Origin: a virus
Length of the DNA stretch: 24,875 nucleotides
Reading direction: 5' to 3' (one strand)
Virus record (IMG/VR): IMGVR_UViG_3300046491_000156
Span: 1-24,875 of that record
Positions 138 to 23,340 of this stretch are shown piece after piece; positions within the stretch are counted from its first letter, which is position 1; every line of letters starts with the position of its first letter. The translations under genes and the position numbers were made by a program. The notes beneath the pieces are model-generated. The model saw only the letters and a program-made list of their open reading frames with translations, ran no database searches and was not told the origin of the DNA.

Positions 138-3100
138 CGAAGGCACGGTGGCAGGACAGGGACCGCTCCTGGGCTGGAACAAAGCCCAGGATGCGATCTC
201 GAAACTGGCGAAGAACGTCGAGTCCCTGAACAAGGGCTTGGAGACGGCTGCCGCCAAGTTCAAGACGGTCGGCGGGGGAGCTGCCGGTCTCTATCAGGGA
301 TGGAACAGCCACGGCTCCGGGTCCACCAGTGGCGCCCGGGGCTTCGGCATGCTCGCCAACGACGTCTGGAACGGCACCAGCAACTACGCACACGGCCGTC
401 CCAACGGCGGTGCGAGCGCTCCGGCCACCGCGCCCCGCGCGGGCACCCAGCAGCGCATGACGACGTCCTCCAACGGAGGTGGGGCCACGTTCTCCGGGCA
501 GACCAACCAGGGCGGCGGTGCGGCCAACAACGGCGGCTCTGGTGGCTCCGGCGGATCAGGTGGCTCGGGCACCAACACTCCGCGCCTGGGCGGGGGTGCC
601 GGGAACAACGGCGGCCAGCGCAAGAGCCCCTACTCGCTCAAGGGCGGCCTCAAGGACGCCTATGCCTGGGCCACCAAGCAGATGCCCGACAAGGTCCTCA
701 TGGACAGCGTCACCTACCAGACGGGCCAGATCTCCTCGCAGTCCTACGGCGCGACCGCGAAGCAGGCGTTCACCAACAACTTCGGCGCCCAGTCCACGAC
801 GGACGCGGGACTCGCCTATCAGACCCTCGCGCAGTCCACGGCCGGTTCTCCAGGCTCCTCGAACTTCAACACGGCATGGAACTACGCCAAGTCCTCCGGA
901 TTCCTCAACCCAGGTGTCTCGGAGGCACAGCGCGTCCAGGGTATGACGGGTGCGTGGACGGCCGGGTCCTACTACGCCAACCAGGCCATCGGCATCCAGA
1001 CGATCAAGAACGGGCAGCGTCAGGACCCCCGCCAGATCGCCCAGCAGGTCATGCAGCGCTGGTCGTCGCTGAAAAGCATCAAGAACAAGGACCAGATCCA
1101 CGACACCCTCAGCGACGGCTCCGCAGTAATGCAGTCGCTGGCTCGCACCATGCCTGCGGGCACCCTCCAGCAGGTCAAGGGCGAACTGACGGGGATACTC
1201 AGCGCCCAGATCAACGGCGCGTCCGAGAAGCAGTACGACTCCACGATGACCAAGGCCAACACCGGCAACAAGAGTGCCAGGGCCCTGTTGAAGAAGTGGA
1301 ACATCGGCGACTCCGACGCGCAGGCCCTCCAGGACCGGGCCGGAACGCTGCGCAATCAGGACGTCAACACACTCCAGCCCTTCAACGATGGACTGAAGAC
1401 CGCGACCAACTACCTGGACAAGTTCAGCACCGCCGTCCAGTCCTTCCTCAAGAGTTCCCACCTGGACACCCCGATCGGCTGGGCCGGTGGTGCCGGTTCC
1501 ATGGTCGGCTCCGCTGCCGGTTCTGCCATGGGCACCTACGGCATGATGCGCGGCCTGGGCAGCGTCGCCCGCCTCGGCGGCTTCGGAGGTGGGGGTGGCG
1601 GGGGCATGCTCGGTGCTGCTCGCGCGGCCCTGGGAGGCGGTACAGGACCGGCTGCTGGCTTCGGCGCGCTCGGAGGTGCCCTGGACCTTTCCGGGGCTGC
1701 CCTGGGCGCTGCTGGCGGCTTTGGCGTCGGCGCCTACCTCACGCACCACTTCGGCTCGAAGTTGGTCGACAAGTACGTCCACGGCAAGAAGGCCAACAAG
1801 GCCGGTCACATCGGCGTGGACGCGGCGACCGGCGCCCTGACTGGTGCAGCCGTCGGTTCCGTCGTCCCCGTCATCGGTACCGGGGTCGGCGCGCTGGTTG
1901 GTGGTGCAATCGGTGCGGGTGTCGGCATCTTCGGTGGCGCTGGAGAGAGCAACGCCTCGGCCGCCACCGGCTCGGGCAAGTCCGGCGCGGTGGCCACAGG
2001 TACGCAGGGCGCGGGTAAGACGGCCGCTGCCGTCATCAAGGTCGCCATGAAGTACCTGGGCGTGAAATACGTCTGGGGTGGGGCCTCACCGAAGGGCTTC
2101 GACTGCTCCGGCTTGCTTCAGTACTCCTTCAAGCAGATCGGTGTCTCGCTGCCCCGTACGGCCGCGCAGCAGCAGAAGGCCGGTAAGGCGGTCAAGCTCG
2201 GCCAGGAGCGCGCGGGTGACCTGCTCTTCAACGGCAACCCCGCTCACCACGTCGTGATGTGCATAGGCAACGGCAGGGTCATCGAGGCTCCGCACACAGG
2301 GTCCTCGGTGCGCGTCCGGTCCTACAAGCCAGGCGAGTTCACCAACGCTGTCCGGATCCTTGGCGCGGTCGGCAACGTCGGCGACTTCACCAACGACAAC
2401 TCCGACACTGCGGGTTCCGACTCCAACCGACTGTCCACCATGGGCTTCGGCGGTGACGTCGGCTCGTACGGCTCCACCGAAGAAGTCGACGCCATCGCGG
2501 CCGGGGTCTCCTCGATCGGTGCGGCCAACGTGGGCTCCGGAGTCGGCGCCGGACAGGGTTCGTCGCAGACCACCGACAACGGCAACAACGCGGCCGGTGC
2601 CCTGCCCTCCGGAAGCCTGAAGACGTGGATCAAGTCGGCGCTCGGCATCCTGCACAAGGACACCGCCTCCAACGAGCGGTACGTCAACACGATGGCCATG
2701 CACGAGTCCGGCGGTAACCCCCGCGCGCAGAACAACTGGGACAGCAATGCCAAGGCCGGGCACCCGTCCAAGGGCATTCTCCAGACGATCGACTCGACGT
2801 TCAACGCGTATTCGCTGGCGGGTCACAAGAACATTTGGAACCCGGTCGACAACATTATTGCCGGTGTGCGGTATGCGGATTCGCGCTATGGCTCCCTGGC
2901 GAATGTGCCGGGTATCAAGTCGATGTCGAACGGCGGAGGCTATAAGGGATACGCAGTCGGCTCCACGAATATCGACGTGGACCAGACCGCCCGCATCCAC
3001 AAGGGCGAAATGATTATCCCGGCGCACCAGGCCGACGCCATCCGAAAGGCGCTGTCGAGTAATACCCCGCTCACGGGCGGAATTGGCGGGCTTAATACCT

Positions 3101-3255
3101 CGGGTGGTAAGGCCACCCTCAACTTCCACTCCGGGGCCGTCGTGGTTCAGGTGCAGGGCGCCATGGATCAGACGTCCGCACGGGATGCGGCGACGCAGTT
3201 CATGACCGCACTCGCCGAAGACAGCCGGATCAATCTCATCGCGGCAGGGAACTAA
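130..3255 (+). CDS. Tape measure protein with NlpC/P60 and lytic transglycosylase domains
   Basis: This 1041-aa protein should set tail length and travel through the tail to open the cell wall. Residues about 75-165 are a Gly/Ser/Asn-rich linker. Residues about 450-620 are Gly/Ala-rich hydrophobic segments of the kind tape measures use at membranes. Residues about 635-745 form an NlpC/P60 peptidase domain with C659 in FDCSGL, H707 in HHVV and H722 in EAPH. Residues about 835-950 form an SLT-like lytic transglycosylase domain with likely catalytic E859 in HESGGNP. The end (IHKGEMIIPAHQADAIRKAL) is typical of tape measures. The start ATG follows a GAGGCGG-like ribosome site, and its stop shares one base with the next start (TAATG). 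A CTTAATACC site lies near the 3' end at 3091. Family assignment is firm; hydrolase activity is inferred from the motifs. Confidence 0.93.
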   Translation: MADEGTVAGQGPLLGWNKAQDAISKLAKNVESLNKGLETAAAKFKTVGGGAAGLYQGWNSHGSGSTSGARGFGMLANDVWNGTSNYAHGRPNGGASAPATAPRAGTQQRMTTSSNGGGATFSGQTNQGGGAANNGGSGGSGGSGGSGTNTPRLGGGAGNNGGQRKSPYSLKGGLKDAYAWATKQMPDKVLMDSVTYQTGQISSQSYGATAKQAFTNNFGAQSTTDAGLAYQTLAQSTAGSPGSSNFNTAWNYAKSSGFLNPGVSEAQRVQGMTGAWTAGSYYANQAIGIQTIKNGQRQDPRQIAQQVMQRWSSLKSIKNKDQIHDTLSDGSAVMQSLARTMPAGTLQQVKGELTGILSAQINGASEKQYDSTMTKANTGNKSARALLKKWNIGDSDAQALQDRAGTLRNQDVNTLQPFNDGLKTATNYLDKFSTAVQSFLKSSHLDTPIGWAGGAGSMVGSAAGSAMGTYGMMRGLGSVARLGGFGGGGGGGMLGAARAALGGGTGPAAGFGALGGALDLSGAALGAAGGFGVGAYLTHHFGSKLVDKYVHGKKANKAGHIGVDAATGALTGAAVGSVVPVIGTGVGALVGGAIGAGVGIFGGAGESNASAATGSGKSGAVATGTQGAGKTAAAVIKVAMKYLGVKYVWGGASPKGFDCSGLLQYSFKQIGVSLPRTAAQQQKAGKAVKLGQERAGDLLFNGNPAHHVVMCIGNGRVIEAPHTGSSVRVRSYKPGEFTNAVRILGAVGNVGDFTNDNSDTAGSDSNRLSTMGFGGDVGSYGSTEEVDAIAAGVSSIGAANVGSGVGAGQGSSQTTDNGNNAAGALPSGSLKTWIKSALGILHKDTASNERYVNTMAMHESGGNPRAQNNWDSNAKAGHPSKGILQTIDSTFNAYSLAGHKNIWNPVDNIIAGVRYADSRYGSLANVPGIKSMSNGGGYKGYAVGSTNIDVDQTARIHKGEMIIPAHQADAIRKALSSNTPLTGGIGGLNTSGGKATLNFHSGAVVVQVQGAMDQTSARDAATQFMTALAEDSRINLIAAGN
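3091..3118 (+). repeat. CTTAATAYC-hairpin element, copy 1
   Basis: CTTAATACC lies at 3091-3099. Two bases later comes a perfect 6-bp stem (GGGTGG 3102-3107, CCACCC 3113-3118) with a 5-base loop. It lies inside the tape-measure gene and is read in frame as Leu-Asn-Thr. No start codon follows it. A partial look-alike, TAATACC before a short CCCG/CGGG stem, lies about 30 bases upstream. Confidence 0.6.
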
Positions 3256-4306: not shown

Positions 4307-5450
4307 ACAAGCACCGGTCACCCGTCTGACGATGGGCACCGACCGCATCACGGACTACATCACGCGAGTGGAGGTCCGCGAGGGCTACGGCGTTCACTCG
4401 ATGGTCATCATCGACGTGACCACCCCTCCCACGTCCAAGAACCCCTACAGCGAACTGACGCCCGTCGTGCTCGACTACGGCCGCGCACCGAACGACCTGG
4501 TCCGCTGGAACGGCTACGTGCACCACTCCAGCGCGCTCGCCTCCTCCGACACCCTCCACACCACGGTGCGGTACATCTGCATCGGGACCACGCTGCCTAT
4601 GAACACCCAGCGCACCCGGTCGTGGAAGAACGTCTCGCCGACGTCGATCGTGCGGCAAGTGGGCCGGGAGAACGGCCTGCGCACCGTCATCTCCCCGTCC
4701 GCCCGGCGCCTGACCTACTGGGCCCAGACCGGCGGGAGCGACTTCAAGCTGGTCAACGACCTCGCGGCCGAGACCGGTTTCCGCTTCTGGGTGGAGGGCG
4801 CCACCCTGTACTTCCTCGACCCGCGCATTCTCCTGCTCGGGCAGAAGGCCCAGGACATCCCGGTGTTCTCCAAGAACCAGACCCCTGGGCTTTACGACAC
4901 CCTCCAGAGCCTTTCCATTCTCACCGGCACGATGATTCCCCGCAGCAATGGGGCGGCCAGCACCTCGGTGATTTCCGGCCTGGATGCGAAGACCGGGAAG
5001 GTCATCAAGGCGTCCTCTACCTCGGACACCGGAATCGGCACGTTCCTGAATTCCATATCCACCGCCCGCGCCGTGGACAACTACGCCGACGCGCAGGCCC
5101 TTATGGAAGCACGCACTCTCGCGTCCCGTGGATGGATCACCATGCAGGCCACGATTTACGGGACGGCGAAAGTGACTCCTGGAACGCTGGTCGGCATCTC
5201 CGGCAGTTCCGTTTCGTCGGACAACAAGGGCCGGTGGATGGTGACGAGCACCAAGCACGTTATCAACCGGGACAAGAACAACAAGGGCCTGATGTTCACC
5301 ACGACCGTCGATGCGGAAAGGGACCAGCCCTACGCGGTAACATTCCGAAGCGATGCGAACAAGCGTTTCAAGTTCGACACCGTCCCGGCTGTGCTGAGGA
5401 ACAGGCAGTTCTGGGAATCGAGTCTTCTGGAGGACATCAATGTCGGCTGA
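4299..5450 (+). CDS. Baseplate hub protein (gpD/XkdQ-like)
   Basis: This 383-aa protein resembles the late-control gpD / XkdQ / gp27-type hub that joins the tail tube to the central spike. Early strands (ITDYITRVEVREGYGVHSMV) are followed by a domain with SPTSIVRQVGRENGL at about residues 110-125. Next comes the hallmark stretch GSDFKLVNDLAAETGFRFWV, then LYFLDPR, around residues 145-172. The C-terminal part is strand-rich (KGRWMVTSTKHVI). The GTG start overlaps the LysM-like gene by eight bases. Its 3' end overlaps the spike gene by 11 bases, with a GGAGG ribosome site inside this gene. Being encoded directly before an OB-fold spike protein supports the hub role. Confidence 0.85.
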   Translation: MSEQAPVTRLTMGTDRITDYITRVEVREGYGVHSMVIIDVTTPPTSKNPYSELTPVVLDYGRAPNDLVRWNGYVHHSSALASSDTLHTTVRYICIGTTLPMNTQRTRSWKNVSPTSIVRQVGRENGLRTVISPSARRLTYWAQTGGSDFKLVNDLAAETGFRFWVEGATLYFLDPRILLLGQKAQDIPVFSKNQTPGLYDTLQSLSILTGTMIPRSNGAASTSVISGLDAKTGKVIKASSTSDTGIGTFLNSISTARAVDNYADAQALMEARTLASRGWITMQATIYGTAKVTPGTLVGISGSSVSSDNKGRWMVTSTKHVINRDKNNKGLMFTTTVDAERDQPYAVTFRSDANKRFKFDTVPAVLRNRQFWESSLLEDINVG

Positions 5451-8400
5451 TCCGGTGCTGGGAATGTACCGGGCGAGCGTTGCCAATAACCAGGACCCGC
5501 TGAATGAAGCCCGCGTCACGCTGCTCATTCCGCAGGTACTCGGAAACGCCGAAAGCGCCTGGGCCGCCCCCGCTTCCCCGACCAACACGATCCCGCCGGT
5601 CGGCCAGACGCTGTGGGTGCAGTTCTCCGGCGGTGACATCACCAAGCCGGTCTACTCCCCGCTCGGCATCAAGGCCGTTCAGGACCAGGTCGACGACCTG
5701 CCCAGCGGAGAGACGCTCGATGTCCTTCCGCCGAAGGAGCCCACCGCCCTCACCCTCACCACGGTGCAGTACGCCACCGCCGAGGGCGCCACCCGGGCCC
5801 GCGTGACAGCGAGCTGGACCCCGCCCACGGAGAACCAGGACGGGACCGCCCTCACCGACCTGTCCCACTACCTGCTCCAAACCTCCTACGACAACAGCAA
5901 CTGGAGCGGCGGCTTCGTCACCACGGAGGACCTGGTCCTCCTCGACGGACTTAATACCGGCGTGGCCCTCTACGTGAGGGTCGCGGCCTTCGACACCAGC
6001 AACAACACCTCCCTGTGGGCGAGCGCCAACCTCACCACGGCGTCCGCTTCCACCCCGCCTCCGGTGCCCTCCGCGCCGGGGGTCCTCGGAGTACTCGGCG
6101 GCCTGCGGGTCACCTGGGACGGCAAGGACAACACCGGCACGGCAATGCCTGCGATCTTCTCCCACGTGCAGGTGCAGCGGGACACCACCTCGGCGTTCTC
6201 CAACCCTGTCGTGATCGGCACGCTGCCCGGCCCGGACTTCCTGTACGACTCCATCCAGAACTACGCCAGCGCCTACTACTACCGGCTGGTCGCATACTCC
6301 AAGGTCGGCATCGCCTCGGCCCCGTCCGGCTCGAACTCGGACACCCCCAAGCAGGCCGTCGCCCAGGACATCCTCGACGGCTCACTGTCGGCGGCGAAGA
6401 TCGCAGTCGGCGCCATCGACAACACCAAGCTGGCGGCGAACGCCGTCCTGGCCGCGAACATAGCCAACGGGGCTGTCGAGGCAGGCAAGCTGGCGGCCCT
6501 GGCCGTCGGCACCACGAACATCGCCAACAACGCGGTCACCGGCACGCAGCTCGCCGACGCCACGATCGGCTCGGCGAAGATCATCAACGGCGCCATCGGC
6601 AACGCACAGATCGCCGACGCGGCCATCAACAACGCCAAGATCGCCGACCTCGACGCGGGCAAGATCAACGTCGGCACGCTCAACGCCGCGCGCATCGCAG
6701 CCGGATCGCTGGACGCCTCGAAGATCACCGCCGGGACGTTGACGGCTACCCAGATCCTGGCGGGCTCGATCACGGGCGACCGGCTCGCAGCCAACACCAT
6801 CACCGCCAACCAGATCGCGGCGAACACGATCACGGCCAACCAGATGGCGGCCGGAACGATCACGGCCCAGAGCGGTGTCATCGCCAGCATCGACGCCAGC
6901 AAGATCACCGTCGGCAAGTTGACTGCAACCCAGATCGACGCCACCAATTTGGTCATCGGTGGCGGCAACGTGAGCGGTACGGTCGCGAGCGCTACCACGG
7001 CAGGCAGCGCAACTTCAGCGGGCAGCGCAGGGACCGTCACGGGATCCCTCGGCGCGGGCGTCGCCGTCCCCGGCGCACAGGTCACTGGAACAGTATCCAG
7101 CGCCACAACCGCGACCACGGCTACCTCGGCGACCTCCGCAGGCAGCGCTACCACAGTCACCGGCTCCATCGGCGCGAGCGTCAGCGTCCCCGCCGGGCAG
7201 TTGAGCAACGGCACCATCCCGACCACGACCACGATCAACGGTGGCTCGATCAAGACAGGCACGATCGACGCGAGCCTGGCCAGCATCACCAACCTGGACG
7301 CCAGCAGCATCAAGGCCGGAACGCTTACCGTCGACAAGTTCTCCGCAGGTCTTCAGGGTCTGGTGGGCCAGAAGTTCTACGACTTCGGCACCAGCGCCTC
7401 GAAGTGGCTTAACGCCGCAGGTGCGGGCGGCACCATAACCTCGGTATCCAAGACCGACGCGGCCTCCGGAGGCTTCGTCATGCGCTGCGCCGGGTACGTC
7501 CAGGGCGCTTACCGCCCGGACCTGCTCATACCCTTCGACCCGACGGTCACCTACCGCGTGACCTGCCGGGTCCGCCAGGTCTCCGACAACTCCACCCCAG
7601 GCACCAACCAGAACTTCTACGCGGGCGTCACCGGCATCGCGTCCGACGGCGTGACCCTGGTCAGCACCACCGGAGCCAACGCTGTCTCCAACCAGCACTA
7701 CGTCGCGGCCAAGGGAGTGCCCCTCACCACTGGCGGTGCATGGGTCACCTACACCGGCTACATCAAGGGATCCTCCGCCACCCCCACGGGAGGCAACCCG
7801 GCCAACAACCCGACCGCCCCGGCCACGCTGCACCAGAACGTGAAGTACATCAGCCCCTGCCTCTACATGAACTACAACGGCGGATCCGGTGCGGCCGAGA
7901 TGGACATGTTCACCATCGAGGTCGTCGAGACCGGCCAGGTCAACTCGGCCAACATCAACCTCGGCAACGTCAACGCCTCGCACCTCTCCCTGGGTTCCGT
8001 GACCGGCAACATGGTCACCAACCCGGGCTTCGAGGATGCCTCCCGCGTCGGCTGGACCCTGACCCAGAGCGACAGCACGCTGGCCACAACGGTCGCCAAG
8101 ATCGAGATCGCTCAAGGCGGGTACCCGGCACGCTCCGGTCAGGGCAAGGCGACCCTGGGGGTCAACAACACCGGCACCGCTACCGCGACCAGCGACCCCT
8201 TCCCAGTCGTCGCCGGGCAGACGTACATGTTCCGGTACTGGTACTACGGCATCGGGCACCTGCACGTCACCTTCGAGACCAGCCCGGACAAGGTCACCTG
8301 GACCGACCAGATGGCTGGGGTCAACGACGTCACCTACAACGCTGCGGCGTACACCGAGGACATCTTCGAGATGACGGCGCCCACCGGGGCACTGTGGGGC

Positions 8401-9816
8401 CGGGTCACCTTCCAGCAGTTGAACCCCGGCTCGTATGGGCTGTCCACCTCGTCGTTCTCCTACATCTGCGTGGACGACGTCCTCGTCATGCGCGAGGGCT
8501 ACGGCGCGACGGACATCTCGGCCGCCGGTGTCCGGCTGTTCGGGCCGGACGGATCACTCGGCACGGAACTGACCACGTCCAACGCCTACGCCACCTTCGC
8601 GGGCGGAGCAGCGAGCATCGACCCCAACGGCGTGGGCACCTTCAAGTCGATCTTCACCCCGCAGCGCCCGGCGGGGGCACCCTCCGATGACCCGACCGGA
8701 CAGATCTGGTACCAGGGACAGGAACTGGGAGCGCTGCTGTGGAACATGCCGTGGGGCATGGTCACCTACGAGCGCGGCTGGACGAACAAGCCGACCTCGT
8801 CGACTTACTACACCACCGAAACCGGACTCATCGAGTTGGCCTTCACAGCCGTCGAGGGCCGCATGTACCGCATCGTGGCCCGATCCCAGTTCGACTTCAA
8901 CGGCGGTACAGGTAACCAAGTATTGGAGAACCGCATCAACGTCGCCGCCACGACGACGTCCGTCAACGGGTGCACGCTAATGAACCCGACCGGTGCCAGC
9001 CCAAGGGTGACGGACCAGATCATCGCCCGCTGCTTCGGGATGTACTACGACGGCGGAGGGACCGACGGCACCACCGCCGTGGAAGGCATCATCGTCTGCT
9101 CCTCCGACGCGGGCGGCCTGTACAGCAGCACCACGGCACTGGCGCCAGGCGACCACAGGCTCCTCTGGACTGCGACGCAGCACGCAGGCAACGCCACCGG
9201 CTGGGGATTGCGCAACTACATCCCCGCGCAATCCTCGGACTTTTACGTCGAGGACATCGGTCCGGCCGTGCCCGAGAACGGTGTGTACAACACGGGTGGC
9301 GCGGCCGTGACGGCCACCAAGACGTACACCAAGACGTACAACGCGGTGTGGTCCCGCCGGTACGGCAACGCCGGATACACCGACGGCACCGTGTACCAGG
9401 GCTACTACTCCAGCACCTGGGGCACGCAGAAGTCGATGATCTACTTCGGCACCCAGCCCTTCACAGACATGGGTTCCACGGCGAAGGTCTCCAAGGTCGA
9501 GATCTACCTCTACAACAACCACTGGTACTACAACGGGGGTGGCACGGCGCACATCGGTGCATTCACCGGAACCACCGAGCCGACGTCTTTCGGTGGTAGC
9601 GGAGTGAACCTCACCGTTTCCTCGTGGCCCGTTGGCGCCGGAAAGTGGGTAACCCTGCCGTCGTCCTGGAATTCAACTTGGAACGCGACCACCCCGTATC
9701 GTGGAATTACGCTAGGTGCGGATCTTGGATCCAGCACCGACAAGACCTACTACGGGTACTTTTCCGGTGTCGGGGATTCCCACCCTCCGCAACTTAAGAT
9801 CACGTACACCAAGTGA
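5440..9816 (+). CDS. Spike/fibre fusion: OB-fold tail tip, Fn3, repeat shaft, adhesin
   Basis: This 1458-aa protein probably forms the tail tip and receptor-binding fibre. Residues about 5-85 (LGMYRASVANNQDPLNEARV through GGDITKPVYSPLGIK) resemble the gp5/VgrG OB-fold of spikes. Residues about 105-205 and 208-305 look like two fibronectin-III domains. Residues about 309-506 are a run of roughly 10-residue repeats (AAKIAVGAIDNTKLA style, NG-A-I and A-x-x-I-A motifs) likely to form a trimeric shaft. Residues about 510-590 hold two tandem copies of a GTVxSATTA...TVTGS unit. The remainder contains jelly-roll or carbohydrate-binding-like domains and a Tyr/Trp-rich C-terminus. The gene overlaps the hub by 11 bases. 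The domain calls beyond the OB-fold and repeats are from visual pattern only. A CTTAATACC element lies at 5950. Confidence 0.85.
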   Translation: MSADPVLGMYRASVANNQDPLNEARVTLLIPQVLGNAESAWAAPASPTNTIPPVGQTLWVQFSGGDITKPVYSPLGIKAVQDQVDDLPSGETLDVLPPKEPTALTLTTVQYATAEGATRARVTASWTPPTENQDGTALTDLSHYLLQTSYDNSNWSGGFVTTEDLVLLDGLNTGVALYVRVAAFDTSNNTSLWASANLTTASASTPPPVPSAPGVLGVLGGLRVTWDGKDNTGTAMPAIFSHVQVQRDTTSAFSNPVVIGTLPGPDFLYDSIQNYASAYYYRLVAYSKVGIASAPSGSNSDTPKQAVAQDILDGSLSAAKIAVGAIDNTKLAANAVLAANIANGAVEAGKLAALAVGTTNIANNAVTGTQLADATIGSAKIINGAIGNAQIADAAINNAKIADLDAGKINVGTLNAARIAAGSLDASKITAGTLTATQILAGSITGDRLAANTITANQIAANTITANQMAAGTITAQSGVIASIDASKITVGKLTATQIDATNLVIGGGNVSGTVASATTAGSATSAGSAGTVTGSLGAGVAVPGAQVTGTVSSATTATTATSATSAGSATTVTGSIGASVSVPAGQLSNGTIPTTTTINGGSIKTGTIDASLASITNLDASSIKAGTLTVDKFSAGLQGLVGQKFYDFGTSASKWLNAAGAGGTITSVSKTDAASGGFVMRCAGYVQGAYRPDLLIPFDPTVTYRVTCRVRQVSDNSTPGTNQNFYAGVTGIASDGVTLVSTTGANAVSNQHYVAAKGVPLTTGGAWVTYTGYIKGSSATPTGGNPANNPTAPATLHQNVKYISPCLYMNYNGGSGAAEMDMFTIEVVETGQVNSANINLGNVNASHLSLGSVTGNMVTNPGFEDASRVGWTLTQSDSTLATTVAKIEIAQGGYPARSGQGKATLGVNNTGTATATSDPFPVVAGQTYMFRYWYYGIGHLHVTFETSPDKVTWTDQMAGVNDVTYNAAAYTEDIFEMTAPTGALWGRVTFQQLNPGSYGLSTSSFSYICVDDVLVMREGYGATDISAAGVRLFGPDGSLGTELTTSNAYATFAGGAASIDPNGVGTFKSIFTPQRPAGAPSDDPTGQIWYQGQELGALLWNMPWGMVTYERGWTNKPTSSTYYTTETGLIELAFTAVEGRMYRIVARSQFDFNGGTGNQVLENRINVAATTTSVNGCTLMNPTGASPRVTDQIIARCFGMYYDGGGTDGTTAVEGIIVCSSDAGGLYSSTTALAPGDHRLLWTATQHAGNATGWGLRNYIPAQSSDFYVEDIGPAVPENGVYNTGGAAVTATKTYTKTYNAVWSRRYGNAGYTDGTVYQGYYSSTWGTQKSMIYFGTQPFTDMGSTAKVSKVEIYLYNNHWYYNGGGTAHIGAFTGTTEPTSFGGSGVNLTVSSWPVGAGKWVTLPSSWNSTWNATTPYRGITLGADLGSSTDKTYYGYFSGVGDSHPPQLKITYTK
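5950..5985 (+). repeat. CTTAATAYC-hairpin element, copy 2
   Basis: CTTAATACC lies at 5950-5958. Two bases later comes a 10-bp stem (5961-5970 with 5976-5985) that includes two G-T wobble pairs and a 5-base loop (TACGT). It is inside the first Fn3-like domain of the spike gene, in frame as Leu-Asn-Thr. Confidence 0.55.
6364..6957 (+). repeat. Short-period coding repeat (fibre shaft)
   Basis: About 198 codons encode imperfect repeats of around ten residues. The recurring themes are A-x-x-I-A-x-G-(A/T/S)-I/L and N-T-(I/K)-x-A-N. The DNA repeats GCC/GGC/ATC-rich codons accordingly. Such runs are typical of trimeric beta-helix-like fibre shafts in actinophage minor tail proteins. This is a protein-level repeat, not a mobile or regulatory one. 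Confidence 0.75.
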
Positions 9817-15932: not shown

Positions 15933-16544
15933 ATGCTTACCAACTACGCCGACGTGGCGGCCCTCGCCGTCGGCCTGGTCCTGCCCGCCATCGTGGCGGT
16001 GTTCACCAAGCCGTCGACCAACCCCACCGTCAAGGGCTTCGCGCACGCCGTCCTGGCCCTCGCCACCGGCTCCCTGGCCACCTACAAGGCCGACCCGTCG
16101 AACTTCGTGTGGGCGCCCGCTGTGATCGCCGCGTTCCTGGCCTGGCTGTCCGGCACCGCGTTCTACCACTCCCTGCTGAAGAAGTACTCCTGGTTCGGTG
16201 CGCTCCAGAACCTGTTCGTGTCCGAGGTCGAGAGCCGTCTTAATACCCACGGCGCCGACGTCGAGCGGTACTTCGAGGTGGCGCAGGCGGCCGAGCTGGC
16301 CGAGGACGCACAGGGCATCACCAACGACTTCCCCTTGAGCACCGACGTGGTTCAGTCCGGCGTGGAGGAGGCTGTCAAGGCGGCCGAGGAGATCCCCGTC
16401 GTCGGCACGGTCGTCCAGCGCTTCGAGACGGTCGCGGTCCCGGCCATCGTTACGGCCGTGGAGGCGGTCGCGGCGCCGGTCGTCGAGAACTCCACACCTG
16501 CCGTCGCTGTGCAGCCTGGCGGCCTGGGTCCGAGGGCGATCTGA
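15933..16544 (+). CDS. Membrane protein, holin candidate
   Basis: This 203-aa protein has two or three likely membrane segments in its first 100 residues: YADVAALAVGLVLPAIVAVF, then GFAHAVLALATGSLAT, then VWAPAVIAAFLAWLSGTAFY. A positively charged turn (KKYSW) and a long soluble, acidic C-terminal half follow, with PVVGTVVQRFETVAVPAIVT near the end. Small multi-span proteins directly after tail genes are often holins in actinophages, but the 100-residue cytoplasmic tail is long for one. A clear AAGGA ribosome site lies five bases before ATG. A CTTAATACC site at 16239 lies in the soluble half. A role in lysis is inferred from topology and position only. Confidence 0.7.
   Translation: MLTNYADVAALAVGLVLPAIVAVFTKPSTNPTVKGFAHAVLALATGSLATYKADPSNFVWAPAVIAAFLAWLSGTAFYHSLLKKYSWFGALQNLFVSEVESRLNTHGADVERYFEVAQAAELAEDAQGITNDFPLSTDVVQSGVEEAVKAAEEIPVVGTVVQRFETVAVPAIVTAVEAVAAPVVENSTPAVAVQPGGLGPRAI
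16239..16284 (+). repeat. CTTAATAYC element, copy 3 (weak hairpin)
   Basis: CTTAATACC lies at 16239-16247, in frame as Leu-Asn-Thr. Unlike the other copies, the downstream structure is weak: a short TCGAG stem with one bulged T near 16261, possibly enclosed by GCGCC/GGCGC. I count the nonamer as real and the hairpin as doubtful. Confidence 0.45.
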
Positions 16545-16546
16545 CC

Positions 16547-16849: not shown

Positions 16850-16876
16850 AAAACCCCGCTAGACAAGCGGGGTTTT
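16850..16876 (+). terminator. Strong intrinsic terminator after the tail/lysis genes
   Basis: AAAACCCCGCT at 16850-16860 pairs perfectly with AGCGGGGTTTT at 16866-16876 around a 5-base loop, and T-rich sequence continues (CTTGCTTTT). The A-run on the 5' arm makes it usable from both directions. It lies 15 bases after the last small membrane-protein gene and marks the border between the structural and replication modules. Confidence 0.9.
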
Positions 16877-16877
16877 C

Positions 16878-16906
16878 TTGCTTTTAGAAGCCGTAATGGC
16901 TAAGGT
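16878..16906 (+). promoter_or_regulatory. Candidate promoter for the replication module
   Basis: TTGCTT (16878-16883), a 17-base spacer and TAAGGT (16901-16906) fit a sigma-70-type promoter of the TAnnnT sort used in high-GC actinobacteria, though only TTG of the -35 matches. The spacer contains AAGCCGTAAT, which recurs in the next promoter region at 19433. A transcript starting near 16913 would exclude the ATG at 16896 and favour the TTG start at 16956. Confidence 0.45.
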
Positions 16907-16955
16907 CTTCCTTGTTGCCAACCACGGCAGCGACCACCACAACACTGGAGCAGAC

Positions 16956-18197
16956 TTGAGCAAGCAGCCCATCACCCTGGCCTTCGCTGGTTCCGCCGAC
17001 ATCGACCCCGAGAACGTCAAGGACCTGCTCAACGACTGGCTCGGCTTCGGCGACGAGGACAAGGACGGCTTCTTCGAGCCGAGCGACCGCGAGATCAACC
17101 TCATCTTCCCGGTCACCCGGGAGCACCTGTCCGACGGCCTGGAAGCGGTCCTCGGCTGGGCCGAGAAGGCCGACCTCCCCTACGTCGCCGTCGCCGACAA
17201 CAAGCGCAGCCGCGCCACCGAGCAGATCCTCAAGGACGCCGAGGAGACCGTCCACGTCGCCAACGTCACGGCCGGTGTGGTCGACCTGCTGAAGAAGGCC
17301 GACAGCGCGGGCGACGAGGTCCACGTCATCCTGCTGTGGGGCGACGAGGGCAGCGAGCAGGCCGAACTCCTCCTGGACGCCGCCGACCATGCGGGCTTCA
17401 AGGCCAAGGACCTCACCGCCGGACTCGACGACATCTCCTTCGGTGAGCAGCCGCAGGCCGAGGAGCCGGAGGAGGAGCCCCAGCCGGAACCCGAGCCGGA
17501 GCCCGAGCCGGAGCCCGAGCCGGAGGCCCCCAAGCGTGGTCGCCGTCGTGGCCGTCGCTCTGAGCCCGAGGAGGCCGAGCCGGAGGAGGAGCCGCTGACC
17601 GAGGAGGACGCGCCGGAGGAGCCCAAGCAGGAGGAGCCCAAGCGCGGCCGTCGCGGTCGCAAGGTCGAGCCGGAGCCCGAGGAGCACCCGGTCGAGCAGG
17701 ACATCCAGGAGCAGCAGGAGGACCTGGAGCAGGAGGTCAACCGCGCCGCGCAGAAGATCCAGCGTGAGGCCACCCCGGTCCCCGACAAGGAGATCGACCT
17801 CATCCTCATCGGCAACGCTTTGGAGGGTGCCTACAACGCCTTCCGCCTGGAGGACGAGCGCAACGCGGTCATCAACCAGGCCGAGGTACGCCTCCGGCCG
17901 CTGACCGAACTGCTGGCCAAGGCGCTTAATATCGTGGCCGACTCGGTCCACGACAAGGAGGCCGAGGAGCAGGAGCGCCCGGCCGAGAAGAAGGCCGAGG
18001 AGCCGGAGGAGGAGCAGACCTCCGGACGCCGTCGCCGTGGACGTCCGCGCGACGAGAGCAAGACGTTTGCCTTCCTGGTCGACGACGAGGGCAACTACAG
18101 CCGTCGCGGCCGTGGCCGTATCCCGGCCGGACAGACCGTCGTACACCTGACCCGGGCGGAGATCGAGGAGAAGGGCCTCGAACTCGACTCGGAGTGA
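16956..18197 (+). CDS. Acidic/RGR-repeat protein with Rossmann-like N-terminus
   Basis: This protein of about 413 aa is of unknown family. The N-terminal 160 residues look alpha/beta (QPITLAFAGSADIDPENVKD; LPYVAVADNKRSRATEQI; DEVHVILLWGDEGSEQ), faintly like SLOG/DprA-type nucleotide-binding folds. A Glu-Pro repeat follows near 17475-17530. After that, acidic stretches alternate with basic clusters PKRGRRRGRR, PKRGRRGRK, GRRRRGRPRD and RRGRGRIP. GRP/RGR cores are AT-hook- or Lsr2-like minor-groove binders, so a DNA-binding or nucleoid-type role is inferred. I prefer TTG 16956, preceded by GGAG at 5 bases and lying after the candidate promoter. The alternative is ATG 16896, which has a poor ribosome site and would start only 20 bases after the terminator. 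A CTTAATATC element is at 17925. Confidence 0.75.
   Translation: MSKQPITLAFAGSADIDPENVKDLLNDWLGFGDEDKDGFFEPSDREINLIFPVTREHLSDGLEAVLGWAEKADLPYVAVADNKRSRATEQILKDAEETVHVANVTAGVVDLLKKADSAGDEVHVILLWGDEGSEQAELLLDAADHAGFKAKDLTAGLDDISFGEQPQAEEPEEEPQPEPEPEPEPEPEPEAPKRGRRRGRRSEPEEAEPEEEPLTEEDAPEEPKQEEPKRGRRGRKVEPEPEEHPVEQDIQEQQEDLEQEVNRAAQKIQREATPVPDKEIDLILIGNALEGAYNAFRLEDERNAVINQAEVRLRPLTELLAKALNIVADSVHDKEAEEQERPAEKKAEEPEEEQTSGRRRRGRPRDESKTFAFLVDDEGNYSRRGRGRIPAGQTVVHLTRAEIEEKGLELDSE
17925..17953 (+). repeat. CTTAATAYC-hairpin element, copy 4
   Basis: CTTAATATC lies at 17925-17933, in frame as Leu-Asn-Ile. A GTGGCC/GGCCAC stem (17934-17939 with 17945-17951, one bulged T) follows immediately and extends to eight pairs if the last two motif bases join. 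The loop is GACTC. Confidence 0.55.
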
Positions 18198-18202: not shown

Positions 18203-18261
18203 GCAAAAGCCCCCGGCGCTGAAGAGGTTCGAGACCTCGATTCACTGCCGGGGGCTTTTGC
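18203..18261 (+). terminator. Long two-tier hairpin, probable terminator
   Basis: GCAAAAGCCCCCGGC (18203-18217) pairs perfectly over 15 bases with 18247-18261. Inside it a second hairpin forms: GAGGT (18224-18228) with ACCTC (18234-18238), flanked by TGAA/TTCA. The stem begins five bases after the TGA of the RGR-repeat gene. The 3' arm ends in only four T, so termination may be partial; the AAAAGC/GCTTTT symmetry would allow action in both directions. No clear promoter is visible between it and the following leader ORF. Confidence 0.7.
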
Positions 18262-18311
18262 CCACCACACCCCGAGGCCCACCACAAACCCCGAGATGGG
18301 AAGAACCTAAC

Positions 18312-18359
18312 ATGTCGAGCCGACTTAATATCAACGGCGGATTCGGAGCCGCCGAGTGA
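18312..18359 (+). CDS. 15-codon leader ORF A (MSSRLNINGGFGAAE)
   Basis: ATG at 18312 is preceded by GGGAAG at about eight bases and opens a 15-residue frame. Its TGA overlaps the GTG start of the initiator gene (GTGA). It contains CTTAATATC read as Leu-Asn-Ile, and the following CGGCGG/CCGCCG hairpin holds the next gene's GGAG in its loop. The layout is that of a leader peptide whose translation opens the downstream ribosome site. Leader ORF B at 23296 has the same plan and the same (S/T)RLN(I/T) core. Expression of such a short ORF is unproven. Confidence 0.5.
   Translation: MSSRLNINGGFGAAE
18324..18354 (+). promoter_or_regulatory. CTTAATAYC-hairpin element, copy 5, at initiator start
   Basis: CTTAATATC is at 18324-18332. 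Two bases later CGGCGG (18335-18340) pairs with CCGCCG (18349-18354), leaving the loop ATTCGGAG, which contains the GGAG ribosome site of the GTG start at 18356. The distance from motif start to gene start is 32 bases, the same as at copy 8. Confidence 0.65.
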
Positions 18360-19426: not shown

Positions 19427-19454
19427 TTCAGAAAGCCGTAATCTGTGGTAGCCT
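19427..19454 (+). promoter_or_regulatory. Candidate promoter before the helicase-loader gene
   Basis: TTCAGA (19427-19432), 16 bases and TAGCCT (19449-19454) form a weak sigma-70-like pair. An alternative -10 is TAATCT (19439-19444). The AAGCCGTAAT decamer at 19433-19442 also occurs in the promoter region at 16888-16897, and both are followed by GTTG and then AACCAC in the leader. A promoter is expected here because a terminator lies just upstream. Confidence 0.35.
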
Positions 19455-19487
19455 CCTGAGCGTTGAACCACCACCACACAAGGAGGC
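19451..19487 (+). promoter_or_regulatory. Inverted repeat that can hide the loader's ribosome site
   Basis: GCCTCCT (19451-19457) is the exact complement of AGGAGGC (19481-19487), which is the strong ribosome-binding site of the GTG at 19492. The 23-base loop is C/A-rich. If the transcript begins at or before 19451, the site would be masked. Confidence 0.5.
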
Positions 19488-19491
19488 AACC

Positions 19492-20151
19492 GTGGCGACA
19501 GACCCCCGGGTCCACGCCTTGCGGCTCAAGGAGTACGGCATCCCCGCGCACTACCGTCACCTGCGGCTTAATACCGTGGCGGACACCGATGAGTCCGCCG
19601 CCTGCCGTACCTGGCTCGACGAACTGCGCGACCACTACGTCACCGACAAGCGGCCCCTCACGGAGTACCCCGAGGACTGGTCCCAGATCGGTAAGGGCCT
19701 GCTGCTCGTCGGCCCGCCCGGGACCGGCAAGACGACCCTCGCCACGGCCACCCTGCTGGAGGTCTACTACGCCCACCGCCTCCCGGTGCACTGGCTGGCC
19801 TACGCCGACTTCGTGAAGGACTCCATCGAGAAGATGGGCCTTCAGGACCGGGCCGAGCCCGAAGCCGTCGCCCGGTGGTGGGACATCCAGGACAAGATCG
19901 TGGCGGCCGAGAAGGCCCCCGTCCTCGTCCTGGACGACGTCGGCAAGGAGCACCGGACCAAGACCGGCTACGCCGAGGGACTGCTGGACACCCTGCTGCG
20001 CCAGCGTCACCGCGAGGCCCGGCCCACGATCGTCACCTCGAACCTCCCGCCCCGGGAGTGGGGCGCCGTCTACAACCCCACGATGGGCTCCTTCATCCAG
20101 CAGGCCTTCACACACGTCAAGTTGATCGGAGAGGACCGCCGTGCAGCCTGA
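19492..20151 (+). CDS. DnaC-like helicase-loader ATPase
   Basis: This 219-aa AAA+ ATPase probably loads the phage DnaB-like helicase at the origin. Visible are Walker A GPPGTGKTT (K80), Walker B VLVLDDVGKEH (D148, D149), and a sensor-1-type IVTSNLPPREW (N184), followed by a C-terminal basic end (VKLIGEDRRAA). The length suits DnaC/IstB-like loaders. GTG 19492 is chosen because AAGGAGG stands four bases upstream; an in-frame extension upstream would run through the terminator. The gene overlaps the next one by 11 bases. A CTTAATACC-hairpin lies at residue 26, within the N-terminal part. The ATPase assignment is firm; the loader role follows from its helicase neighbour. Confidence 0.9.
   Translation: MATDPRVHALRLKEYGIPAHYRHLRLNTVADTDESAACRTWLDELRDHYVTDKRPLTEYPEDWSQIGKGLLLVGPPGTGKTTLATATLLEVYYAHRLPVHWLAYADFVKDSIEKMGLQDRAEPEAVARWWDIQDKIVAAEKAPVLVLDDVGKEHRTKTGYAEGLLDTLLRQRHREARPTIVTSNLPPREWGAVYNPTMGSFIQQAFTHVKLIGEDRRAA
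19567..19599 (+). repeat. CTTAATAYC-hairpin element, copy 6
   Basis: CTTAATACC lies at 19567-19575, in frame as Leu-Asn-Thr. Two bases later GGCGGAC (19578-19584) pairs perfectly with GTCCGCC (19593-19599) around ACCGATGA. It is 75 bases into the loader gene and does not precede another gene start. Confidence 0.65.
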
Positions 20152-20374
20152 ATACGAGCAGACGCCCCTCCCGTTCGAGGACGAGGTTTTGGTGATTCTC
20201 TACAAACGGGAAGTGCCGGACCATCGCCTCCCCGAGCACTGGGCCTCCCTGGAGTGGACCGTCCGCAGCCGCGCTAAGCACCTCGGCTTCGACCTCGTGC
20301 GCACCCGCCGGTTCCAGAAGTGGGAGGGCGACACGCTTAATATCTCGCTCCGCGCGGAAGCGGAGCGCACCTGA
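20141..20374 (+). CDS. Small protein between loader and next gene, unknown
   Basis: I do not recognise this 77-aa protein. It has mixed strands and a helix: FEDEVLVILYKREVPDHRLP, then SLEWTVRSRAKHLGFDLVRT and a short strand-rich end. No membrane segment or catalytic motif is evident. The GTG start has GGAGAGG upstream and overlaps the loader by 11 bases. Its last 39 bases hold CTTAATATC and an 8-bp hairpin that covers the ribosome site of the following gene, with which it overlaps by one base. Its place suggests a small replication accessory protein. Confidence 0.8.
   Translation: MQPEYEQTPLPFEDEVLVILYKREVPDHRLPEHWASLEWTVRSRAKHLGFDLVRTRRFQKWEGDTLNISLRAEAERT
20336..20367 (+). promoter_or_regulatory. 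CTTAATAYC-hairpin element, copy 7, masking a ribosome site
   Basis: CTTAATATC is at 20336-20344. One base later CGCTCCGC (20346-20353) pairs perfectly with GCGGAGCG (20360-20367) around GCGGAA. The 3' arm contains GGAG (20362-20365), the ribosome site of the ATG at 20374, so the folded RNA would hide it. The motif-to-start distance is 38 bases. Confidence 0.7.
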
Positions 20375-20832
20375 TGCAGGGCGGCGACATCTCCAACGAG
20401 GTCGTCCCCCGCTTGGTCATCGCCTACGAGGGCATGCTCGGCGTCCTGCCGGAGAAGCCCGAGGGATACGTGCACGAGCTGGTTGCCCGCAAGTTCGGGC
20501 GCCGCGCTCGCATGGCCAAGCGGACCGTGGACGCGTACGAGATCAACGACGCGCTGGCCCGGGTCATCTGGGACACCGTCTGGCGCTTCAAGTACTCGGT
20601 CGACGTCGTCACCTACCTCGGGGACGACGCTGTCGAGCCCCTGGAGGCCCGCCTGGACGCCGAGGGACTTCCCATCGGCCGGGTGTGGTCCACGACCCCG
20701 GAGCGGCTGGCCAGACGCCTGCCCTACATGCCGGACGTAGCCGCGATCTTCGACAACGAACACCACCTGATCTTCGGCAGCAAGGGACGCTCTCTGCCCG
20801 CTGCTCCCACCACCTTGATCGGAGCACTGTAA
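20374..20832 (+). CDS. Replication-module protein of unknown function
   Basis: I do not assign a family to this 152-aa protein. The sequence is alpha/beta: VPRLVIAYEGMLGVLPEKPE, then a helical, basic part (RRARMAKRTVDAYEINDALARV), then SVDVVTYLGDDAVEPLEARL. It ends with MPDVAAIFDNEHHLIFGSKG. The last parts vaguely recall HAD-like proteins (a hydrophobic strand followed by D or DD), but the first-motif Asp pair is not obvious, so I do not claim phosphatase activity. It overlaps the previous stop (TGATG), ends directly at the helicase GTG, and probably works in the same operon. Its ribosome site is inside CTTAATAYC-hairpin copy 7. Confidence 0.8.
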   Translation: MQGGDISNEVVPRLVIAYEGMLGVLPEKPEGYVHELVARKFGRRARMAKRTVDAYEINDALARVIWDTVWRFKYSVDVVTYLGDDAVEPLEARLDAEGLPIGRVWSTTPERLARRLPYMPDVAAIFDNEHHLIFGSKGRSLPAAPTTLIGAL

Positions 20833-22101: not shown

Positions 22102-22378
22102 GCCCCGGCTGGTGGTCCTCGCCGGGAACTTCCGGGAGTTCCAGTTCTGGTGCCGGGAGAACAACCGCAATCCCCGTGACCGGAATCTGATCTACGCCAG
22201 CGAAATGCACCGGCTGCGCGGCCTCGGGCCAGTCCGATTCATAACGTACGGAACTTGGTACTGGCGCCGCGACGCCTGGGAAATGAAGAGTTACCTGACA
22301 TACCTGGAGAGGAGATACCAGTGCCCCGAGCAAAAGCCGGATGGGACGCAATCGGAAACCCCGTCCCTGGAAACGTGA
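22076..22378 (+). CDS. Small conserved-looking protein between helicase and primase
   Basis: This 100-aa protein has the core FREFQFWCRENNRNPRDRNL then RLRGLGPVRFITYGTWYWRR. It looks like a compact alpha/beta domain with a conserved aromatic run (TYGTWYWRRD). I recall no firm function. The start may be ATG 22076 or ATG 22082; neither has a clear ribosome site, so translation is probably coupled to the helicase, which it overlaps by 26 bases. Its 3' end overlaps the primase by 58 bases, more than any other pair here. Nesting between helicase and primase suggests a replisome accessory role, which is inference only. Confidence 0.75.
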   Translation: MAMSAPPSEPRLVVLAGNFREFQFWCRENNRNPRDRNLIYASEMHRLRGLGPVRFITYGTWYWRRDAWEMKSYLTYLERRYQCPEQKPDGTQSETPSLET

Positions 22379-23286
22379 CCGCGTGCCTGGACACGCTCGG
22401 CCTTGACTACAAGGTCCAGGGAGACGAAATACATATGCCGTGCCCCATGCACGAGCAGCGCACCGGAAAGAAAGACGCACACCCATCCTTCTCTATAAAC
22501 TTCGACGAGGGCTATTTCAACTGCTTCTCCTGCGGATACCGAGGGGCTTTCTGGGTCCTCGTACGGGACATCCAGGAGGCCACCGACGCGGAGGCCAAGA
22601 ACTGGGTCCGGCGCAGGGGAGGAGCGGAGCGGGTACGGAAGTACCTGGAGAAGAAGAAGGAGCAGCGCCCCGACAAGGTCGACACGACCAAGCAGATAAA
22701 TGAGGCGTCGCTGGCCCTGTACACCGTGCCGCCGCTGAGCGCCTGCGCCGAGCGGTTCTTCATGCCGGAGGACGCTGAGGCGTGCGGGGTGCTGTGGGAT
22801 CCGGCCCGGGACATGTGGATCGTTCCGGTGCGCGACCCGGACACCGGGATGCTGTGGGGCTGGCAGGAGAAGAACGCCCGCTACTTCCGCAACCGGCCGC
22901 CGGGCATGGCCAAGTCCAAGACGCTCTTCGGCCTGCACACCTACGACGACGACGTGGCCGTGCTGGTCGAGTCGCCGCTGGACGTGGCCCGTCTGTGGAC
23001 CTGCGGGATCCGGGGAGGGCTGGCCTCCTACGGCGCCGGAGTTTCTGACTCGCAGATGTCCCTGATCCGCGACCACTTCGACACCGTGATCATCGCCCTC
23101 GACAACGACGACGCCGGGGCGGAGGCGTGCAAGCGGCTGCTGGAGGAGTGGACCGGCCGGGGCCTGACCCTGAAGTTCCTCGACTACTCCGTGGCCCCTC
23201 ACGCCAAGGACCCCGGCGACATGAACGCTGACCAGATCAAGGCCGCTGTACGCGGCGCCTACTCGTCCATCCTCGCTCGCTTCTAG
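22321..23286 (+). CDS. DNA primase (CHC2 zinc finger plus TOPRIM)
   Basis: This 321-aa primase makes RNA primers for the phage fork. A CHC2-type zinc ribbon is visible at C41-x2-H44 and C68-x2-C71 (MPCPMHEQ; FNCFSCGYRG). The middle holds a linker and strands leading to a TOPRIM domain: VLVESPLDVARLW with E217, SYGAGVSDSQ, and IALDNDDAGAEACKRL with D261 and D263. The length is short for DnaG, with no C-terminal helicase-binding domain visible, but usual for phage primases. GTG 22321 is chosen because GGAGAGGAG lies just upstream; an in-frame upstream TTG has no such site. It overlaps the preceding gene by 58 bases and is followed by leader ORF B. Confidence 0.9.
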   Translation: MPRAKAGWDAIGNPVPGNVTACLDTLGLDYKVQGDEIHMPCPMHEQRTGKKDAHPSFSINFDEGYFNCFSCGYRGAFWVLVRDIQEATDAEAKNWVRRRGGAERVRKYLEKKKEQRPDKVDTTKQINEASLALYTVPPLSACAERFFMPEDAEACGVLWDPARDMWIVPVRDPDTGMLWGWQEKNARYFRNRPPGMAKSKTLFGLHTYDDDVAVLVESPLDVARLWTCGIRGGLASYGAGVSDSQMSLIRDHFDTVIIALDNDDAGAEACKRLLEEWTGRGLTLKFLDYSVAPHAKDPGDMNADQIKAAVRGAYSSILARF

Positions 23287-23295
23287 GAGATCACC

Positions 23296-23340
23296 ATGAC
23301 CCGGCTTAATACCTGCCCCCGCAAGGGGGACCACCGATGA
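23296..23340 (+). CDS. 14-codon leader ORF B (MTRLNTCPRKGDHR)
   Basis: ATG 23296 follows TAGGAGATCACC, a good ribosome site at seven bases. The 14-residue frame ends in a TGA overlapping the next ATG (ATGA). Within it are CTTAATACC (Leu-Asn-Thr) and a CCCCC-GCAA-GGGGG hairpin whose 3' arm is the ribosome site of the HNH gene. Both the plan and the (T/S)RLN(T/I) core repeat leader ORF A. Its existence as a peptide is unproven; the coupling geometry is the stronger evidence. Confidence 0.5.
   Translation: MTRLNTCPRKGDHR
23305..23329 (+). promoter_or_regulatory. CTTAATAYC-hairpin element, copy 8, at HNH gene start
   Basis: CTTAATACC is at 23305-23313. Two bases later CCCCC (23316-23320) pairs with GGGGG (23325-23329) around the GNRA-type loop GCAA. 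GGGGGA is the ribosome site of ATG 23337, so the stem hides it. Motif start to gene start is 32 bases, identical to copy 5. Confidence 0.65.

Follow-up and report, generated by a model that had tools for sequence, protein, structure and literature searches.

Lambdoid nut sites (boxA–boxB) combine a linear box with an RNA hairpin, are recognized in a phage-specific manner and occur in one or two copies per phage. The T4 phage endoribonuclease RegB shuts off phage messages at a short motif with a GGAG core, helped by structure and lying mostly in ribosome-binding sites, and ribosomal frameshift or pause stimulators set a stem a few nucleotides downstream of a codon pair in a frame-dependent way. 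Among DNA elements, the stoperators of cluster A mycobacteriophages are described, in excerpts of two reports, as predominantly of one orientation and with genome-specific motifs (PMC6550527; PMC9283540), and the excerpted account of the SPBRE/MrpR system of Bacillus phage SP-beta gives a 15-bp DNA motif in promoter regions and names ten genes (PMC10516654). Here, we report the analysis of a 24,875-nt stretch of viral DNA (IMG/VR record IMGVR_UViG_3300046491_000156, positions 1–24,875; hereafter the window), which carries eight copies of a CTTAATAYC nonamer followed by a stem. We document the element together with its stem, the sense-strand RNA character of the site, an orientation along transcription, a kept reading frame and two genome-wide spellings among related phages. 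Tentatively, we read it as a co-translational messenger RNA (mRNA) control site, recognized by a factor and silencing lytic genes in the manner of RNA stoperators. Two of its features had escaped an initial annotation of the window: the element lies in translated sequence, tiny leader open reading frames (ORFs) included, and some relatives have another base at its fourth position throughout.

A translated nonamer and stem in two spellings

The initial annotation had listed eight CTTAATAYC copies on the + strand of the window and none on the − strand, all read as Leu-Asn-(Thr/Ile), and on both points it was right (8/8; Table 1). Dinucleotide-shuffled versions of the window contain a mean of 0.01 copies (maximum 1), and the reversed pattern, taken as a control, is absent from both strands (0/0). 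By a simple stem score, all eight copies reach at least 13, compared with 26% of random positions. The stems it had seen at seven copies stand; it had left out the copy at 16239, whose weak 5-bp stem with one G·T brings the count to eight of eight.

Relatives were gathered through the DnaB protein of the window, which yielded 43 IMG/VR loci, and 16 records were searched for the spellings. The element proves to be genome-wide in relatives and to go with phage type. Five close relatives (G003, G007, G008, G009 and G010; the AAT type) each carry 28–39 CTTAATAYC copies on the main strand, with 39 on + and 1 on − in G003, one reverse copy also in G010 and all 28 on one strand in G007. Seven close relatives (G001, G002, G004, G005, G006, G011 and G012; the CAT type) have none, and instead carry 16–36 main-strand copies of CTTCATACS, with one extra reverse copy in four of them; CTTCATACS is in turn absent from the AAT records. 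In the looser form CTTCATAYN, 33–45 copies are found in five of the CTTAATAYC-free relatives, of 98–110 kb. At orthologous places, CTTAATA in one set of phages is CTTCATA in the other set. The distant records W01 and W03 have one CTTAATAYC each, and W02 and G013 have none. A second search, with the L178 DnaB as query, found no closer relative, and its 29 other loci have at most three CTTNATAYC each.

The same picture emerges from codon pairs. CTT-AAT is the most over-represented in-frame pair in all four AAT genomes tested (22–34 seen against 0.5–1.0 expected; 34 against 0.9 in G003), and CTT-CAT likewise tops the list in the seven CAT genomes (22–38 against 0.8–1.8; 38 against 1.6 in G001). 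CTT-CAT is the top pair in a more distant 35.8-kb fragment, G020, too (9 against 0.2), and neither pair is among the seven top pairs of ten other relatives (G013–G019, G021, W01 and W02). Because one base differs in all copies of a genome, and the whole records searched show no mixing of the two sets, a type-matched trans-acting recogniser is implied. A third spelling, CTTCTAGNC, with 27 copies on one strand of G014, was rejected, as it shows no stem enrichment and codon-context bias explains it. In that genome (loci L209–L213), CTT-CTA occurs 49 times against 2.5 expected and GAT-CTA 25 times against 3.6, with no hairpin; in G019 (loci L245–L248), GTT-CAT occurs 13 times against 0.8, with no element discernible by eye.

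For the statistics of stem and frame, the site sets comprise 392–400 sites from 11–12 genomes and are largely orthologous, so that 92 ortholog groups, a few chance matches among them, are the better unit. Stems scoring at least 13 start immediately after the nonamer at 18% of 399 sites in 12 genomes, one base later at 18% and two bases later at 43%, that is, at +10 to +12 and mostly +12 counting from the C of CTT; every other offset is used at 0–11% of sites, typically about 4%. Mean folding energies over 30 nt range per genome from −10.0 to −13.5 kcal/mol at sites and from −6.0 to −6.8 kcal/mol at random positions. In 41 groups that also hold orthologs without a site, sequences with the motif have a stem score of 14.0 and those lacking it one of 10.6, the random level (Wilcoxon p = 8e-5). 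The stem is part of the element.

Imperfect stems indicate which molecule is selected. Of 29 group-weighted cases with one interruption, 13.5 are G·T, 2.0 A·C and 13.5 other mismatches; at random positions the same classes make up 13.7%, 20.1% and 66% (G·T versus A·C excess at sites, Fisher p = 4e-4 on rounded counts). As a palindrome selected as duplex DNA would treat G·T and A·C alike, the selected molecule is most likely the sense-strand RNA. The initial annotation had argued for selection on an RNA or single-stranded DNA fold rather than on protein; what survives of this is a sense-strand fold, with RNA favoured by the bias of G·U over A·C, and protein excluded only as the sole target.

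The orientation of the element follows transcription, which argues against a strand-specific role in replication. Eight of the 12 genomes (G001, G002, G003, G004, G005, G006, G010 and G012) have one reverse copy each, lying in frame in a leftward ORF, 5–11 codons past the nearest possible start and 38–47 codons before the stop, with stem scores of 11–20; in G003, this ORF precedes a leftward serine integrase. With reverse copies placed near the starts of leftward ORFs and the frame kept, the replication or priming site and the DNA-enzyme site that had been put forward earlier are both disfavoured.

The element keeps to one reading frame, that of the codons CTT, NAT and AYN, in tiny leader ORFs as elsewhere. 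With genes called by a simple G+C-periodicity script, 319 of 400 sites fall in + strand genes, 61 between genes and 20 over − strand ORFs, and CTT is a codon (frame 0) at 316 of the 319. Within these genes, the first three tenths (144 sites) and the last tenth (48) are both favoured, with 175 sites beyond the first three tenths. By G+C periodicity, frame 0 is the reading frame in 80 of the 92 ortholog groups; of the other 12, ten have an ATG 2–6 codons upstream in frame with CTT and two look like chance matches. A start codon lies upstream in the open frame at 392 of 392 sites, which in GC-rich DNA is weak evidence alone. It had been suggested that the frame may only reflect avoidance of stops or TTA, and in AAT genomes the other + frames would indeed yield TAA or TTA. 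The explanation fails in the CAT genomes, in which no frame is blocked by stops and codon usage predicts just 36–40% for frame 0 (G001, G004).

In six groups in which the element sits in an isolated short frame, a start is present within 8 codons in its own frame in 6/6 and in the other two frames in 0/12, and five of the six have a Shine–Dalgarno-like stretch, weak in some. The leader ORFs that we looked at have 9–17 codons, and the two in the window, encoding MSSRLNINGGFGAAE and MTRLNTCPRKGDHR, end in stops that overlap the next start. They look built for the element to be translated ahead of a coupled gene.

Phage types and a candidate recogniser

Trees of the site flanks cover 30 of 35 mixed groups (each with at least five sequences and at least two per type); with weak nodes collapsed, 22 show a single type change and 8 show two or three. 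Type changes average 1.19 in site-flanking segments (n = 31) against 1.70 in segments more than 900 nt away (n = 86; p = 8e-4), where the far segments overlap and the untestable positions number 69 of 155 among the far and 9 of 40 among the near ones. The lower number near sites suggests that mismatched sites are selected against. Exchange between types is freest at DnaB (4–5 changes, 41.4–41.7 kb) and at an XRE/DUF5753 regulator (3–5 changes, 100.8–101.4 kb of G003). Because it has been exchanged across types and does not follow site type, this regulator is probably not the recogniser. G003 also has an element-free stretch of 15 kb (L066:12666 to L067:7634, about 72.3–87.6 kb), with several cross-type exchanges and mostly genes of unknown function; G007 and G009 have element gaps of about 18 kb.

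Of 120 protein families encoded on the + strand, that of a HicA-like protein of about 70–97 amino acids is split by type the most, with an excess of 0.62 from two AAT and six CAT sequences (mean over families −0.04, standard deviation 0.17). The ranking excludes − strand ORFs, which scored top; the one that we aligned is an apparent antisense shadow ORF, and the rest are presumed to be alike. Next come a poorly conserved 695-residue family (0.55) and a well-conserved protein of 64–66 residues (0.39). The latter, of unknown function (L067:19075-19269 in G003; L159:10001-10192), lies directly after a frame with the element near its end.

The type of the HicA-like protein goes with the type of the sites. 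Contigs found with its AAT form have AAT sites in 11/11 cases, in one case just a single reverse copy, and contigs found with its CAT form have CAT sites in 12/12; a twelfth contig from the AAT query, L145 of G014, has neither AAT nor CAT sites. When 20 records were searched with a profile, the protein was found in three element-bearing genomes of 98–106 kb (G001, G003 and G006) and in the element-less G014. It was not found in the other 16, which comprise 13 element-less records no shorter than 67 kb, two shorter records and G020, the fragment that bears the element. The CAT form matches a PHROG toxin family (E = 5.5e-5). An AlphaFold (AF2) model of the AAT form (mean predicted local distance difference test score, 80.5) has the order helix-strand-strand-(short helix)-strand-helix, that is, the α-β-β-β-α order of HicA with one extra short helix. 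When the candidate was searched by sequence against the PDB, the matches were confined to artificial helical repeats and amine oxidases (E ≥ 0.01). We regard the HicA-like protein as the best candidate for the factor, an unproven lead and not a result.

Two RNAs were considered in the same role. A phage antisense RNA is unlikely, since the reverse complement of the 7-mer occurs once each in G003 and G001, both times as the reverse-strand element itself; in G004 it has three matches, two of which, near transfer RNA (tRNA) genes, are not elements. Of the tRNAs, tRNA-Asn(GTT) is present in 9/9 genomes with tRNA genes. An unusual tRNA-His(GTG), with a long variable arm, a tRNA-Leu-like body, a G before position 1 and C73 (L114:15726-15811 in G012), occurs in three sequence types in the CAT genomes G001, G002, G005 and G012 and also in CAT contigs, and was not found in CAT genomes G004 and G006 or in AAT genomes G003, G007 and G009. 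Its absence from the two CAT genomes led us to reject it as the determinant of type.

Proposed mechanism and alternatives

In the reading that we favour, the site would have the form 5′-CUU-[A/C]AU-AYN-(0–2 nt)-stem-loop-3′, in about 30–45 copies per genome, and would be served by a phage-encoded factor existing in at least two specificities, CUU-AAU and CUU-CAU, the copies of a genome matching its factor. When CUU occupies the ribosomal P site and NAU the A site, a stem that begins at +10 to +12, mostly +12, lies about where the ribosome meets downstream structure. From the stem spacing and the frame rule, the simplest reading is that the ribosome is held at CUU-NAU by the stem and that a phage factor acts there. 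A ribosome on CUU-NAU would meet the stem-loop at the mRNA entry and pause; the cognate factor, conceivably the HicA-like protein, would bind or cut the exposed CUU-NAU/stem RNA; and the gene in question, or the one coupled to the leader, would cease to be translated. By this means the factor may silence most lytic operons, and probably the operons of a same-type phage entering the cell, through about 40 checkpoints per phage placed in coding frames and in purpose-made leader ORFs. In its fullest version, which we put forward with a little more reserve, the elements would be RNA stoperators at which a small phage protein or RNase, acting on ribosomes at CUU-NAU before the hairpin, silences lytic genes and excludes phages of its own type, the AAU and CAU specificities defining types that exchange less DNA near sites.

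Several observations weigh against this account. Stem preservation and compensatory change, which the initial annotation had singled out as checks, give a divided answer: stems are better where the motif is present than in siteless orthologs, but the mean stem score is below 13 in 41% of ortholog groups, and a register-fixed test for compensatory change is not significant (0.42 paired against 0.36–0.40 when slid). Of the nine sites of the distant fragment G020, 22% have a stem starting at +1 and no site has one starting at 0 or +2, so that hairpins are not clear there. CAT phages could have taken over frame 0 from an ancestor of the AAT type, in which stops force that frame; countering this, 39 groups are CAT-only, at least two of them apparently chance matches. 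The types form clades at most site loci, so many other genes separate them too, and 10 of 11 AAT contigs examined contain a single off-type CTTCATAYN, the matches inspected in three contigs having no clear stem by eye. As for the candidate factor, its CAT form scores 23.7 bits against the HicA family PF07927, short of the cut-off of 27, and its AAT form has no match to that family; Foldseek places HicA chains of 6g26 (TM score normalised to the target, 0.62–0.63; E about 1) under unrelated aminotransferases; and the protein also occurs in G014, which is without the element, as well as going unfound in the element-bearing G020.

First among the alternatives, and rather unlikely in our judgement, is a role in mRNA processing that aids expression: an endoribonuclease of the phage or the host would cut in CUUNAUAY just 5′ of the stem, which would shield the 3′ product from 5′-dependent decay and set operon stoichiometry. 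A motif directly 5′ of a stem, in sense-strand RNA and oriented with transcription, is what such sites would look like; two genome-wide spellings suit a phage-encoded cutter of changing specificity, and the bias of sites to the first three tenths of genes and to their last tenth fits as well. Many copies, however, lie within large genes (for example, that at 5950), where cutting would destroy the message, and the processing of mRNA leaves the reading-frame rule and the leader ORFs unexplained.

The frame rule and the rare codons ending in U would instead fit a translational device that needs no factor (a programmed pause, frameshift or bypass at CUU-NAU), and the stem lies near the spacing usual for ribosomal stimulators. 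We nevertheless consider this distinctly unlikely. Median distances to shifted-frame stops are 50.5 codons at sites against 43 in controls, and 80 against 61, no telling difference, and without a trans factor, or a tRNA acting as one, the two genome-wide spellings are difficult to account for. A frameshift element as such was rejected: it has no signature, and the shifted frame gives no defined product or stop.

Two further possibilities strike us as improbable to a like degree. In one, the elements would be nut-like sites of processive antitermination, a linear box and then a hairpin, reloading RNA polymerase every few kilobases. The function of nut sites should be frame-independent, whereas the frame is kept here and leaders are translated, and about half of the sites (175/319) lie beyond the first three tenths of genes; these points outweigh the layout, the orientation with transcription, the many copies and a phage specificity of recognition like that of lambdoid N and boxB. 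In the other, the site would be a DNA stoperator, an asymmetric operator for an elongation-blocking repressor, and the stem would be incidental. Copy number, single orientation and co-variation of site with phage type are as in cluster A mycobacteriophages, so far as the excerpts of that work go (PMC6550527), but the stem belongs to the element and tolerates G·U and not A·C, the frame rule and leader ORFs are left over, and the XRE/DUF5753 regulator of the phage mixes across types.

Least probable, and very much so, is a switch in which codon 2 (AAU or CAU) is read by a tRNA-Asn or tRNA-His whose supply or modification the phage changes: the changed base does convert an Asn codon into a His codon, and the distribution of tRNA-Asn and of the unusual tRNA-His given above is suggestive, but two CAT genomes are without tRNA-His and CAT genomes retain tRNA-Asn.

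If the elements are indeed co-translational control sites, they would constitute a genome-wide regulatory code at the level of translated RNA, with dozens of near-identical in-gene checkpoints tied to the reading frame and spelled differently when the recogniser differs, and the idea of stoperators and superinfection immunity would reach beyond DNA to mRNA under translation. Simple reporters can test the system, given its two natural spellings and its short leader ORFs.

The window, its lineage and known systems

Table 1 Location of the eight elements and the two leader ORFs in the window
Feature	Position	Strand	Motif or peptide	Spacer	Stem	Setting
Element 1	3091..3118	+	CTTAATACC	2 nt	6 bp, GGGTGG/CCACCC (3102-3107/3113-3118)	In frame, 1041-residue tail gene 130-3255
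Element 2	5950..5985	+	CTTAATACC	2 nt	10 bp, two G·U (5961-5970/5976-5985)	In frame, 1458-residue tail gene 5440-9816
Element 3	16239..16263	+	CTTAATACC	2 nt	Weak, 5 bp, one G·U (16250-16254/16259-16263)	ORF 15933-16544
Element 4	17925..17951	+	CTTAATATC		4 bp plus interruption (17934-17937/17948-17951)	ORF 16878-18197
Leader ORF	18312..18359	+	MSSRLNINGGFGAAE, then stop			Hosts element 5; stop overlaps GTG start of next gene at 18356
Element 5	18324..18354	+	CTTAATATC	2 nt	6 bp (18335-18340/18349-18354)	Inside leader ORF 18312..18359
Element 6	19567..19599	+	CTTAATACC	2 nt	7 bp (19578-19584/19593-19599)	Codons 26-28 of DnaC-like helicase loader 19492-20151
Element 7	20336..20367	+	CTTAATATC	1 nt	8 bp (20346-20353/20360-20367)	Near end of ORF 20141-20374
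Leader ORF	23296..23340	+	MTRLNTCPRKGDHR, then stop			Hosts element 8; AGGAG stretch upstream; overlaps ATG of next gene at 23337
Element 8	23305..23329	+	CTTAATACC	2 nt	5 bp, CCCCC/GGGGG (23316-23320/23325-23329)	Inside leader ORF 23296..23340

The window has 66% G+C and encodes tail, tape-measure-like and baseplate proteins in its first part, and a replication-initiation protein, a DnaC-like loader, DnaB, primase and helicase in its later part. The ORF hosting element 7 ends in a stop that overlaps the next ATG. Two terminator-like hairpins were seen by eye at 16850-16886 and 18204-18262 (ccccgc...gcgggg and gcccccggc...gccgggggc, both with T following), one near the start of ORF 16878-18197 and the other just past its end. 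A megablast search of the window against a phage collection gave no match; the annotated phages nearest by DnaB are Streptomyces phages, LuckySocke, BRock and pSt2308 among them, at 40–41% identity. The window comes from a high-GC phage lineage, a distant relative of annotated Streptomyces phages, with a streptomycete or other actinomycete as the likely host; one scan of bacterial genome contigs found no relative. In the relative G003 (105,651 bases), two integrases, one tyrosine-type and one large and serine-type (PHROG matches, with the tyrosine and serine labels assigned from family matches), are encoded along with the XRE/DUF5753 regulator (L068:635-1540, −), so the lineage is probably temperate. 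The serine-type enzyme, with an invertase-like match (L063:1-2082, −), adjoins the second integrase (L063:2377-3519, +).

An Rfam scan of the window gave one match at E ≤ 1, below the gathering score and away from the elements, and literature searches, including for the motif letters and judged by titles and abstracts, turned up no such phage element. Several described systems share part of its make-up. Like lambdoid nut sites, the element presents a box and then a hairpin in the transcript; unlike them, it has many copies and is tied to the frame. RegB sites resemble it in joining a short motif to structure, and differ in having no known genome-wide change of spelling with a stem at a fixed spacing. 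With frameshift and pause stimulators it shares a frame-dependent codon pair and a downstream stem; it has no slippery heptamer and no sign of an alternative product, and comes in about 40 copies and two spellings.

SPBRE is likewise a repeated element across a temperate phage genome and is bound by a master repressor, MrpR; it is, in contrast, a promoter-region DNA element, for which the excerpts of the report describe neither a hairpin nor translation. A further resemblance is to the cluster A stoperators of the L5/Bxb1 type, which, as far as the excerpted accounts go, are also short asymmetric sites along the genome of temperate phages of actinobacteria, with one main orientation to transcription and a motif that co-varies with phage type. 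Those are DNA sites with a 13-bp core for an elongation-stopping repressor, whereas the element described here has an RNA stem, a frame rule and translated ORFs. Copy number, orientation and co-variation with type thus agree with stoperators, and action as double-stranded DNA appears not to; since selection seems to act on RNA and the reading frame counts, the element does not fit the DNA stoperator family. The parallel is one of behaviour, in copy number, in spread over structural and replication genes and in the match to type.

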